Shown one piece after another: positions 2,720-7,546 of a stretch of 64,000 nt of DNA; position 1 is the first letter of the stretch; each line of letters starts with the position of its first letter. The position numbers and the translations under genes were made by a program. The stretch comes from Methanosarcinaceae archaeon. GTDB taxonomy: Archaea > Halobacteriota > Methanosarcinia > Methanosarcinales > Methanosarcinaceae. The notes beneath the pieces were generated by a model, which saw nothing but the letters and a program-made list of their open reading frames with translations, was not told the origin of the DNA and ran no database searches. The stretch covers positions 1-64,000 of the forward strand of contig JAIPUR010000012.1 in NCBI GenBank assembly GCA_020055655.1. Direction: 5' to 3'.

Positions 2720-4189
2720 ATGTCATCACAATTCGATATCATTCATAAGGATGCAGCAGGTCGTATAGGGAAGCTGACAACTCCGCACGGAGTGATTGAA
2801 ACGCCAACTGTAATGCCTGTTATCAATCCTAATATCCAGACAGTAAAAGCATCTGAAATGAGAAGTTTCGGTGCACAAGTACTCATTACTAATTCATATA
2901 TTATCTATCGTAAAGATGAATTGCGGGAAAAAGCATTAAAAGATGGTCTGCACGCACTTCTTGATTTTGATGGCCCTATAATGACAGATTCAGGTTCATT
3001 CCAATTATCTGTATATGGGGACGTCGAAGTCACCAACGAAGAGATCATTGAATTTCAGCAAAAAATAGGCACTGATATTGGTGTTCCTTTAGATATTCCA
3101 ACTCCTCCCGATGTTACTCGTGAAAGGGCAGAAGAGGAACTTAAAATTACGATCGAGCGTCTGAAGGCTGCAAGGGAGCTTGTAAAAGATGGTATGTTAC
3201 TTGCAGGTCCGGTGCAGGGATCTACATATAATGATCTTAGGGAAGAATGTGCAAGAACCTTATCAGAAATGAAATTTGATGTTTATCCGTTCGGTGCAGT
3301 GGTCCCATTAATGGAATCATACCGTTACTCTGACCTGGTGGATGTCATAGCATCAGCAAAGAAAGGACTTGATCCAACGGCCCCTGTTCACCTGTTCGGT
3401 GCAGGCCACCCTATGATGTTCGCACTTGCCGTGGCACTTGGATGTGACCTTTTTGATTCTGCAGCATATGCATTATATGCTAAAGACAGACGTTACATCA
3501 CTGCCAGAGGAACTTATCATGTTGATAACCTGAGATACCTTCCATGCTCTTGCCCAATATGCATGTCTCACACAGCAGAGGAACTAAAAAAGGCTCATAA
3601 CTGCACTGAACTACTGGCAAAGCATAACCTCTACGTTACCTTTGAAGAGGTCCGTGAAGTCAAGCAAGCTATATGGGGCGGTAATCTATTAGAACTTGTG
3701 GAGCAGCGCTGCCGCTCACACCCTCGCATGCTTGAAGCACTCAAGACCCTGTCCAATTATTCCGAGTGGCTGGAACAGTGTGATCCTGCATCCAAATCAA
3801 CATTATTCTATTGTGGTCCAGAATCTGCTAAAAGACCTGAAGTGCTACGCTTCTCCAAACATGTGGAGAACTTCACAATACAGGGGTCTGCATTGATTCG
3901 TGCTTATCCTACAAAGCGTGATAATGAATATGAAAATGTATTGATATTCAAAGCACCATTCGGCACATATCCACAGGAACTTGCAGAGGTCTACCCATTG
4001 AACGCAGAGGTTGTTAAAACACCTGACAGTGAGTCACTCGAAGTTGCTTATCTCAATACCATCAAGCTTGTGGAATTGAACCCTGATGCACAGTTCACTT
4101 TCCTCATGCAGGGAAGATTTGAGCATCCACTGGTGGAAAAACTCGAAGCACTTCCAAACGTGGGAATAGTGCTGGCACACAATTACTGA
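2720..4189 (+). CDS. tgtA: Archaeosine tRNA-guanine transglycosylase (catalytic part)
   Basis: Exchanges guanine-15 in the D-loop of archaeal tRNAs for preQ0, the first tRNA step of archaeosine synthesis. The TGT barrel is clear: TDSGSFQ (residues 89-95, Asp90), GAGHP (227-231), and CDLFDSAAY with the probable nucleophile Asp246. Zinc ligands are the CSCPIC group (Cys276, Cys278, Cys281) and His302. At 489 residues it is shorter than full-length euryarchaeal enzymes (about 650) and lacks the C-terminal PUA domain, as in other Methanosarcinaceae where that part is encoded separately. A TATA-like TTTAAATATA (about 2689-2698) sits about 25-30 bases before the ATG, suggesting a very short or absent leader. 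The RaSEA gene at 53942 belongs to the same pathway. Confidence 0.95.
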   Translation: MSSQFDIIHKDAAGRIGKLTTPHGVIETPTVMPVINPNIQTVKASEMRSFGAQVLITNSYIIYRKDELREKALKDGLHALLDFDGPIMTDSGSFQLSVYGDVEVTNEEIIEFQQKIGTDIGVPLDIPTPPDVTRERAEEELKITIERLKAARELVKDGMLLAGPVQGSTYNDLREECARTLSEMKFDVYPFGAVVPLMESYRYSDLVDVIASAKKGLDPTAPVHLFGAGHPMMFALAVALGCDLFDSAAYALYAKDRRYITARGTYHVDNLRYLPCSCPICMSHTAEELKKAHNCTELLAKHNLYVTFEEVREVKQAIWGGNLLELVEQRCRSHPRMLEALKTLSNYSEWLEQCDPASKSTLFYCGPESAKRPEVLRFSKHVENFTIQGSALIRAYPTKRDNEYENVLIFKAPFGTYPQELAEVYPLNAEVVKTPDSESLEVAYLNTIKLVELNPDAQFTFLMQGRFEHPLVEKLEALPNVGIVLAHNY

Positions 4190-4264
4190 TTGCCAGTACT
4201 TATCACACCCTAATACTAATATATAATATAATGAATTATGAGCTAGAATCTACAGGTGATCATC

Positions 4265-5209
4265 TTGGTATCCACTTCTGACTCAAAGAAAAGAAACCCA
4301 TATTTAGAATTACTCCGGCCGGAAATTGCAGACATGGACTTTGCACTTCCAGCTGCAAGTGCATTGCTGGCCAGTTATCTGGCAGTAGGGGCATTGCCTG
4401 ATCCTATTCTTTTCATAATAGCAGTTATAGGTGGATATGCAGCCATCACCAGTTCATATGTTTATAATGACTGCTGTGATGTTGATATTGATAAGATCAA
4501 TCTTCCAAATAGGCCACTGGTGGCGGAAAAAGTCACGCGTAGTATGGCCTTGAAATATTCTCTGTTCCTTTTCATCGTAGCTGGCTTAGCTGCCTTCTAC
4601 CTGAATCCCGAATCTCTTTTCATACTTGTTATTGCCGTTGCAACGATCAGTATTTACTCCGCTGCAGCAAAAAGGCTGACATTTTTGAGTTTTGTTCCAG
4701 TGGGGATCGCATATGGCTTGGTGCCAATAGGTATATGGCTGGCCTTTGATCCTGCAGGAATTCTGAAACAACCTGATTATGGCGCTATTTTACCGCTCCC
4801 TGCAATATTCCTGGGACTCATGATGTGTTTCACTGACTGGGGATTCACACTTTCCGGTGTTGCTCGTGATGTAGAGGGTGACAAGGCACGTGGTGCTCCG
4901 ACTTTCCCAGTAACCTTTGGAGTTCCTGCTACAGCAAAGTTTGTAACTCTCATGTGGTTTATTGGTGTACTAGCATCTCTTGCAATAGGCTGGACTGCAA
5001 AGATCGGTCCAATATATTTTGCAGGTGCTATTCTTGCAGGCGGTTGGATGCTCACACAGTCTTTTGATTTCATAAAGACCCCAACTCCTGAACGTGGTGG
5101 AAGGCTTTTCCTTCAGGGCTCCAGATACAGGGGTATAATGTTTGGTTCACTTATATTGGATGTAATTCTATCCACTGTTCTTGCATCATATGCAGGAATA
5201 CTCTGGTAA
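4265..5209 (+). CDS. UbiA-family prenyltransferase
   Basis: Integral membrane prenyltransferase of about 314 residues with some eight to nine hydrophobic segments. Both aspartate-rich motifs of the UbiA superfamily are present: NDCCDVDID near residues 68-76 and RDVEGDKARG near 195-205; these bind Mg2+-prenyl diphosphate. Acceptor and prenyl donor cannot be read from sequence. In archaea this superfamily makes digeranylgeranylglyceryl phosphate and other prenylated compounds. The reading frame opens at GTG 4256, but that GTG lies inside a Shine-Dalgarno site (AGGTGATC, 4254-4261), so TTG 4265 is the preferred start. TATA-like ATATATAATAT is at about 4220-4230. It heads a tight operon with a geranylgeranyl reductase-like gene and a radical SAM gene. 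Confidence 0.85.
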   Translation: MVSTSDSKKRNPYLELLRPEIADMDFALPAASALLASYLAVGALPDPILFIIAVIGGYAAITSSYVYNDCCDVDIDKINLPNRPLVAEKVTRSMALKYSLFLFIVAGLAAFYLNPESLFILVIAVATISIYSAAAKRLTFLSFVPVGIAYGLVPIGIWLAFDPAGILKQPDYGAILPLPAIFLGLMMCFTDWGFTLSGVARDVEGDKARGAPTFPVTFGVPATAKFVTLMWFIGVLASLAIGWTAKIGPIYFAGAILAGGWMLTQSFDFIKTPTPERGGRLFLQGSRYRGIMFGSLILDVILSTVLASYAGILW

Positions 5210-5225
5210 TGATCGAGGCTCGATA

Positions 5226-6383
5226 ATGGATGCAGATATTATAGTCATAGGAGCTTCCCCTGCCGGTCTTATGGCAGCCAGAAATGCTTCTCGAAAAGGG
5301 TGCAATGTAATTGTCATTGATAAAAAGGAAGCTACAGGAGTTCCTCCTCATCCTGCAAACACTTTTTTCAAAGGAATGTTTGACAGAGCAGGTGAGGTAG
5401 TTGATCCAAGCTATGTTATAAAAACCCTCAAAGGTGCGCACATAGTGGCACCTTCCGGAAGAGAGGTAATATTTGAAGGCGAAGCTTACTTCCTTGATCG
5501 GAAAAAATTCGATGAATTCTATTCAAAGCAGACTGCAGACTCAGGTGTTGATATTCGTATGGGCATTGAGGCGTTCAATGTGCTCAAAAATGGCGACACT
5601 TTTGTTATAAGCACAACAGATGGAAAGTTGAAGTGTAAACTTGTAATAGTCTCAGACGGTATCAATTCAAAGATTGCCGGCCTTTTAGGTATGAAATCAC
5701 TGAAATACCCGCAGGACATTGCCTGGGCGCTTGAAGCAGAGGTTGAAGCAGATGGTATCGGTGAGCCCGATATGTTCGAATATTATGTTGGAAATCATGC
5801 ACCTGGCTGGAAATCCACTTATTCTCCATGTGGTGGAAATCGTGCCACCCTTGGGATGTATGTGCGTAGGAACGGCAGGGATGTTTCAGATTTCTTCGAT
5901 GCGTGGGTTGAGAAGTTCAAAAAGCTCAAAGGCATCGATGAGCTGAAATTCATAAGCAAATCAGTTGGCGGGGATCCAATTGTTGCAATCCCCAATGAGA
6001 TTATAATAGATGGCGTGATGCTTACTGGTGGTTCTGCAGGTCAGTCTGGTATTGGGTATGGCATGCATGCCGGGCAGATGTGCGGTGATGTTGCAGCAGA
6101 TGCAATTGCAAAAGGTGATGTTTCCAAAAAGGCACTTTCAGAGTATAGGAAACTCTGGAATGCTGCTTACAGGACTGAGTATTATTTGGGCAGGTTCGCA
6201 TTGGAATCCCTGAGAAAAATGACTGACAAAGAGATTGACGACCTGATGAAGGTCTTTGAAGGCGAGGATCTCACTGTTCTGGGTGGAACTCCTTTCAACC
6301 AGACTGTTCAGGTATCAAAGATGATCCTGAAGAAAAACCCGTCAGCAATTCTCTCATACAGGGCACTGTTCAGAAATAAGTAG
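5226..6383 (+). CDS. Geranylgeranyl reductase-family flavoprotein
   Basis: FAD-dependent oxidoreductase of 385 residues in the geranylgeranyl reductase/DGGGP reductase family, which saturates isoprenoid double bonds. The N-terminal dinucleotide-binding motif reads GASPAGLMAA, and a second FAD motif (LTGGSAGQSGIGYGMHAG, about residues 265-282) is typical of the family. No signal peptide or membrane helix is evident. The ATG at 5226 follows 16 bases after the prenyltransferase stop with a GAGG element upstream; an upstream in-frame extension overlaps the previous gene and is not favoured. The pairing suggests that the prenyl tail attached by UbiA is then reduced. Whether this is the general membrane-lipid reductase or a dedicated one is open. 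Confidence 0.85.
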   Translation: MDADIIVIGASPAGLMAARNASRKGCNVIVIDKKEATGVPPHPANTFFKGMFDRAGEVVDPSYVIKTLKGAHIVAPSGREVIFEGEAYFLDRKKFDEFYSKQTADSGVDIRMGIEAFNVLKNGDTFVISTTDGKLKCKLVIVSDGINSKIAGLLGMKSLKYPQDIAWALEAEVEADGIGEPDMFEYYVGNHAPGWKSTYSPCGGNRATLGMYVRRNGRDVSDFFDAWVEKFKKLKGIDELKFISKSVGGDPIVAIPNEIIIDGVMLTGGSAGQSGIGYGMHAGQMCGDVAADAIAKGDVSKKALSEYRKLWNAAYRTEYYLGRFALESLRKMTDKEIDDLMKVFEGEDLTVLGGTPFNQTVQVSKMILKKNPSAILSYRALFRNK

Positions 6384-6400
6384 GGAATATTGGCGAGTCC

Positions 6401-7546
6401 ATGAAAAACAAATATTATTTTTACAAGAACCCTGTGTTCAAAGTATATGCCAAAGTAGAGGATAACAAGGTCCAAATGAAGACCTCCGGTATTGCATCTA
6501 CCTTCATGGATTCTTTCATTTCTGACATGACTAGCATATTCGAGGGTACACAACCTGCAAAAGTGGAAGATGACAGGCTGATCTATTCAACATGGATGCC
6601 TCCAATACCAAGTAAGGCGTTTGCCAGGCTTGTATCAAGTCAGATGAAAGCCATGAGGGGAAAGTATGTTCCAGAACAAATAACAATTTCAATCACAGAA
6701 GAATGCCCCAACAAGTGTATACATTGTGCTCTTCCGGATACTAAAAACAAGGCAAGGCTTGAGCCTGATGCAGTAAAGAATATAATTGACCAGACGATCA
6801 ACCTGGGGTCCACACTCATTATCTTCGACGGCGGGGAGCCACTTTTGTATGATGGTCTTGAGGGCCTTATAAGCTATGTAGATCAGTCAAAGGCAATCCC
6901 AGCCCTTTTTACATCCGGTGTGGGTATGACTCCTGAACGTGCAAAGAGCCTGAAAGGTGCAGGTCTTTACATGTTAAGTGTAAGCTTAGATAGTGCAAAT
7001 GCAGAAGGTCATGACTACATGCGTGGCAGGTCCGGCGTTTTCGATGAAGCAGTTAATGCTGTAAAATACGGACTTGAAGCGGGTCTTTTAGTTGGCATTT
7101 ACGTTGTGCTCTCTCCGAAAAATGTTGATGAACTGGATGATTTCTATGAGCTTGCAAAGTATCTTTGTGTCCATGAGCTATCTTTTTATGAAATCGTCCC
7201 GACTGGCAGGTGGCAGGATCACGAAGGTGAAGTTGTTTCAGCTGAAGGTCTCAAAAAGTTCGATGAATTTGTGGAACGTACCTCAAATGATGAAGGCCCT
7301 CGCATATTCCCTATTCCTCAGATAATCAGAAAAATGGGATGTTTTGCAGGTAGGAAGTGGCTCCATGTAACTCCTGAGGGTGATGTTCTTCCATGTGCAT
7401 GTATGCCAAAGCCATATGGTAATATCCACAGTGAATCCCTGTCTTCCATATGGAAAAAGATATACAAAGACCCTGTTTTTACATCCGGGCCATGTCTTAT
7501 GCGGGATGAGTCTTTCCGCAAATCTCATTTGAACTTAATAGAGTAG
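6401..7546 (+). CDS. Radical SAM protein with SPASM-like C-terminus
   Basis: Contains the radical SAM cluster motif CxxxCxxC (Cys102, Cys106, Cys109), the GGEP motif (residues 144-147), and a C-terminal cysteine set (Cys314, Cys332, Cys334, Cys365) typical of SPASM/Twitch domains that hold an extra iron-sulfur cluster. The first 90 residues have no motif I recognise. It begins 17 bases after the reductase stop, so the three genes are almost certainly co-transcribed. Reaction unknown. Linkage to a prenyltransferase and an isoprenoid reductase suggests a radical step on a prenylated lipid or cofactor precursor rather than peptide modification, since no precursor peptide is visible nearby. Confidence 0.85.
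   Translation: MKNKYYFYKNPVFKVYAKVEDNKVQMKTSGIASTFMDSFISDMTSIFEGTQPAKVEDDRLIYSTWMPPIPSKAFARLVSSQMKAMRGKYVPEQITISITEECPNKCIHCALPDTKNKARLEPDAVKNIIDQTINLGSTLIIFDGGEPLLYDGLEGLISYVDQSKAIPALFTSGVGMTPERAKSLKGAGLYMLSVSLDSANAEGHDYMRGRSGVFDEAVNAVKYGLEAGLLVGIYVVLSPKNVDELDDFYELAKYLCVHELSFYEIVPTGRWQDHEGEVVSAEGLKKFDEFVERTSNDEGPRIFPIPQIIRKMGCFAGRKWLHVTPEGDVLPCACMPKPYGNIHSESLSSIWKKIYKDPVFTSGPCLMRDESFRKSHLNLIE

Follow-up and report, generated by a model that had tools for sequence, protein, structure and literature searches.

Several described systems resemble the gene set analysed here. The futalosine menaquinone pathway (MqnA-E, with the UbiA-type MqnP), together with the menaquinone-specific prenyl reductase of Archaeoglobus, likewise combines radical SAM enzymes with a UbiA step that prenylates a membrane redox carrier and a GGR-type enzyme that saturates the side chain of this carrier. 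It differs from our set in that the genomes tested that carry the set lack MqnA and MqnD, the radical SAM protein is of the SPASM/twitch type and a phenazine ether is proposed as the product. A GGR-type reductase acting on the quinone side chain has been described in Archaeoglobus (Hemmi 2005, as cited in PMC4683180). The methanophenazine pathway itself has been described as unknown, and one study states that mining genomes for it was not possible (PMC4683180). M. mazei MM_0789, a methanophenazine-specific geranylfarnesyl-diphosphate (GFPP) synthase, is the sole enzyme assigned to it (PMC3017947). MM_0789 (NF040627) belongs to the same proposed pathway as the genes described below and adjoins one of them, rSAM2, but makes the side chain only; in the literature we found, UbiA, GGR and radical SAM genes are not linked to it. 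The bacterial Phz pathway has a phenazine product in common with the proposed route. No phz genes were present in the loci inspected, and PhzF is only sporadic among methanogens that contain methanophenazine (PMC5244752).

Two further groups of enzymes share features with individual members of the set. Radical SAM/SPASM proteins of the AhbD/NirJ/PqqE type have the CX3CX2C motif and a C-terminal auxiliary-cluster region in common with rSAM1; in contrast to them, rSAM1 falls under all curated cut-offs, shares three auxiliary cysteines with its paralogues and has an N-terminal domain lacking a significant PDB match. Archaeal DGGGP synthase and GGR share superfamily, Asp-rich motifs and FAD fold with the first two proteins, whereas the lipid work in this genome falls to separate orthologues and the GGR motif differs.

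A three-gene operon in Methanosarcinaceae

The window, a 64,000-nucleotide stretch of contig JAIPUR010000012.1, comes from a Methanosarcinaceae genome that clusters with Methanolobus in the rSAM3 tree. It carries genes for a UbiA-family prenyltransferase, a GGR-like flavoprotein and a radical SAM/SPASM protein, rSAM1 (Table 1). A preliminary description had presented these as one tightly spaced set, and we confirmed the open reading frames, the common strand and gaps of 16 bases (UbiA/GGR) and 17 bases (GGR/rSAM1). The longest UbiA frame runs from a GTG at 4256, which is a possible alternative start judging from the reading frame; the in-frame TTG at 4265 yields MVSTSDS, resembling the MVSISDS start of an orthologue (L152). 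The UbiA-GGR-rSAM order is contiguous in 30 of 30 Methanosarcinaceae loci inspected, arguing that the arrangement is not due to chance. This contiguity extends to three further genera, one of them represented by L152, for 8 Methanosarcinaceae genera overall. Only in this family do the three genes form a single operon: UbiA and GGR are still neighbours in f2 (ANME-2a/b), and in f3 (ANME-2c) and f6 (Methanothrix-type) all three lie dispersed. The upstream position of tgtA is retained in several Methanosarcinaceae genera, and its co-transcription with the trio is possible. In ANME-2c (L147 6850-9014, G045:C22), UbiA lies immediately 3' of the gene for A-type ATP synthase subunit C.

Table 1. Positions of the trio, of the gene upstream and of a compact cluster
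Feature	Position	Strand	Remarks
tgtA (archaeosine tRNA-guanine transglycosylase)	2720-4189	+	66-75 bases upstream of trio
UbiA-family prenyltransferase	4265-5209	+	candidate phenazine (or precursor) O-prenyltransferase; PF01040, Asp-rich motifs
GGR-like FAD prenyl reductase	5226-6383	+	candidate reductase of one side-chain double bond
rSAM1, radical SAM/SPASM (three-cysteine, twitch-like)	6401-7546	+	one of three paralogues
Compact cluster, example	L135 6697-14254 (G107:C1)		archaea without McrA

The UbiA protein matches PF01040 with 141 bits (Pfam cut-off 34.2) and has both Asp-rich motifs noted in the preliminary description, NDCCDVDID and DVEGD, which stand at residues 71 and 205 when counted from the GTG. 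By sequence comparison its closest solved structure is the ether-forming DGGGP synthase 6m31, a relationship that fits an ether product. The GGR-like protein is a flavoprotein of the FAD/lycopene-cyclase type (Pfam) in which both predicted FAD loops, GASPAG and GGSAGQSGIG, are present; its closest solved structure, 3oz2, is a DGGGPL reductase. These nearest relatives are what one would expect if the trio modified membrane glycerolipids by means of a second DGGGP synthase, a lipid reductase and a lipid-modifying radical SAM enzyme. However, the UbiA protein reaches only 84 bits with the best DGGGPS model (NCBIfam cut-off 296), a cut-off exceeded by the other UbiA of the genome, a DGGGP synthase at 359.5 bits, and the GGR-like protein scores 110 bits against GG-red-SF, under the cut-off of 158.8. 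The motif YxWxFP is typical of GGR and DGGGPL reductases; the trio protein has APGWKSTYSP at the position where the classical GGR, encoded separately in the genome, has YxWxFP. The lipid alternative raised in the preliminary description is thus weakened, since DGGGP synthase and classical GGR are separate genes. The trio is also missing from sister families that need ether lipids too, and we know of no lipid trait that follows its distribution. We consider a role in lipid modification unlikely.

In rSAM1, Pfam identifies Radical_SAM (76 bits) and SPASM (34 bits) domains. Cysteines C102, C106, C109, C314, C332 and C365 are invariant across 39 homologues. This upholds the radical SAM motif and three of the four C-terminal cysteines proposed earlier; the fourth, C334, is a cysteine in only 12 of the 39, and the auxiliary-cluster cysteines common to the paralogues number three, not four. 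The AlphaFold model (pLDDT 92) resembles SkfB, CteB, SuiB, BlsE, MoaA and PqqE as a whole, whereas the N-terminal domain of about 90 residues, modelled alone with moderate confidence (pTM 0.67), gave no PDB match at E<=0.001 and appears to be new. We considered and rejected a RiPP maturase with an RRE: the whole model is near SkfB, CteB and SuiB, yet the N-terminal domain has no PDB match. PHROGs returned generic radical SAM matches only, and the top NCBIfam models, AhbD haem b synthase (124.6 bits) and NirJ2 (121 bits), have cut-offs of 500.

Radical SAM paralogues and related clusters

Every trio-positive genome encodes two more radical SAM proteins of about 40% identity, rSAM2 and rSAM3, and the paralogy of the trio member, one of three, is new here. 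The paralogue tree places rSAM3 in one clade spanning trio genomes and the compact-cluster archaea described below, with rSAM1 and rSAM2 as sisters. The rSAM2 gene follows a GFPP synthase gene in every tested genome of the Methanosarcinaceae and of the Methanothrix type; f2 and f3 lack this arrangement. In G177 this synthase scores 615 bits (curated GFPS cut-off 600) and lies 141 bases from rSAM2. Haem-synthesis genes are divergent neighbours of rSAM2, a setting matched by that of the Methanohalophilus MM_0789 orthologue, reported near haem and ATP-synthase genes (PMC3017947). A point against a methanophenazine pathway is that GFPS-like synthases are present also in menaquinone makers (e.g. 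f9, f20 and f32). rSAM3 stands alone; a search for a conserved neighbour common to Methanosarcinaceae and Methanothrix found none.

The proximity of rSAM2 to haem genes, together with AhbD and NirJ2 being the top matches of the radical SAM protein, could suggest a modified or prenylated haem as the product of the set. Against this, both scores are far under the cut-offs, AhbD has a gene of its own in the haem cluster and does not belong to the paralogue clade, and a Methanothrix-type genome has the pair of rSAM2 and GFPP synthase genes without a haem cluster, making a haem product very improbable.

A compact cluster with members of the radical SAM family is also present in distant archaea, namely Candidatus Methanohalarchaeum, SCG-AAA382B04 and MAGs that bear the label Methanocellales; in some genomes it is divided between two places. 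It comprises an rSAM3 orthologue, two more radical SAM proteins of the family, a GGR orthologue, a PTO1314-type radical SAM protein, a divergent UbiA-like protein (in L135 without the first Asp-rich motif) and an NMT1-like protein (in L135 related to solute-binding proteins). We rejected the last as a general member of the pathway, its strong orthologues being confined to compact-cluster families. Most compact-cluster genomes, including those of f11, f17 and f21, lack McrA and HdrE, and their product may therefore differ; the gene set may be older or broader than methanogenic use of methanophenazine. These genomes would fit a trio whose product is another prenylated carrier (such as that of the compact cluster) or a cofactor with an accessory role in the same electron chain. 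Such a product is improbable for the trio, however, given that the linked GFPP synthase in Methanosarcinaceae is assigned to methanophenazine and that methanophenazine is the prenylated carrier reported from this family.

Two other occurrences were observed. A lone, long-branched family member (L143 8708-9916, G187:C9) is found in a genome of f29 that gave no match to McrA or HdrE. A contig labelled Bathyarchaeota (L158) carries an rSAM3 that is 72% identical to the Met33H copy, and because of this identity its label or binning may be wrong.

Distribution among methanophenazine and menaquinone families

We searched for orthologues of UbiA in 80 genomes, of GGR and rSAM2 in 60, and of rSAM1 in 296 genomes of the phylum, and placed families by comparing McrA with solved structures. 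McrA of f3 matches the ANME-2c structure 9qm5 (1271 bits), and that of f4 the ethyl-CoM reductase 7b1s (1407 bits), identifying f4 as Ethanoperedens. The f10 protein matches 3sqg, which we take to be ANME-1, and that of f5 is closest to 9qqt/9qr1, presumably Methanoperedens. Assignment of f2 to ANME-2a/b is by elimination, and f6 is called Methanothrix-type from a named scan. UbiA is bimodal, with at least 293 bits in f1, f2, f3 and f6 and at most 57 bits elsewhere; GGR orthologues occur in the same four families and in the small-genome compact-cluster archaea. Strong orthologues of UbiA, GGR and rSAM1 are thus found in Methanosarcinaceae, Methanothrix-type archaea, ANME-2c and (by elimination) ANME-2a/b, and within these scans trio orthologues are absent from the Methanoperedens-like (f5) and Ethanoperedens (f4) families of the same order.

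In our panel MqnA/MqnD are found in none of 23 trio genomes and in 7 of 7 trio-less genomes of the same order (f4, f5), a contrast that does not amount to 30 independent observations because the two trio-less families may share one loss. HdrE does not discriminate, being present in f4 and f5 as well. Methanophenazine production is predicted outside this phylum too, in Methylarchaeales. Methanophenazine was undetected in a Methanoperedens enrichment (PMC4683180), and it has been predicted for ANME-2a/b/c, with a quinone in ANME-1 (PMC9012536). The comparison suggested in the preliminary description, between archaea with and without methanophenazine, therefore finds the trio in the families that make or are predicted to make it and not in same-order families that encode menaquinone synthesis. 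This is the pattern expected of a methanophenazine pathway, based on few independent losses; a single gain and a single loss may account for it. A possible exception was a menaquinone-type Syntropharchaeum-like MAG (G125) with four Mcr copies and an rSAM1 at L070 7707-8837 (G125:C36). We rejected it, as this gene clusters with ANME-2c and lies on a 12-kb contig, probably a contamination.

A candidate methanophenazine pathway

The earlier proposal of methanophenazine as the product is supported by this distribution, by the separate lipid genes and by the position of rSAM2 beside the side-chain synthase, a comparative rather than biochemical link. From these genomic comparisons we estimate at roughly 80% the probability that some of the enzymes of methanophenazine biosynthesis are encoded by this operon. 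Beside the observed gene content, linkage, paralogy, distribution and cluster-binding residues, we infer all chemical steps of the following route. A C25 all-trans chain would come from the GFPP synthase encoded elsewhere, next to rSAM2. UbiA would attach this chain through an ether bond to the hydroxyl of a hydroxyphenazine or of a precursor, and the GGR-like flavoprotein would then saturate one double bond, as the menaquinone prenyl reductase does in Archaeoglobus. Methanophenazine has a side chain with one of its double bonds saturated. The steps on the aromatic nucleus would be carried out by rSAM1, rSAM2 and rSAM3, all of the radical SAM/twitch type, with the substrate perhaps held by the three-cysteine auxiliary 4Fe-4S cluster. 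Action on the nucleus is suggested by the three copies that accompany every complete set and by the lack of an evident Phz-type route in the inspected loci. Only tentatively do we propose that the three paralogues build the phenazine nucleus or rearrange it, in an anaerobic, Phz-independent route predating the split between Methanosarcinia and the compact-cluster archaea.

Overall, their presence in presumed methanophenazine archaea and absence from close relatives that use menaquinone make the trio and the two related radical SAM genes strong candidates for the methanophenazine pathway. The paralogues represent a radical SAM family with an apparently undescribed N-terminal domain. The gene set offers concrete knockout targets in tractable Methanosarcina and a genomic marker by which uncultured archaea that use methanophenazine could be told from those that use menaquinone.
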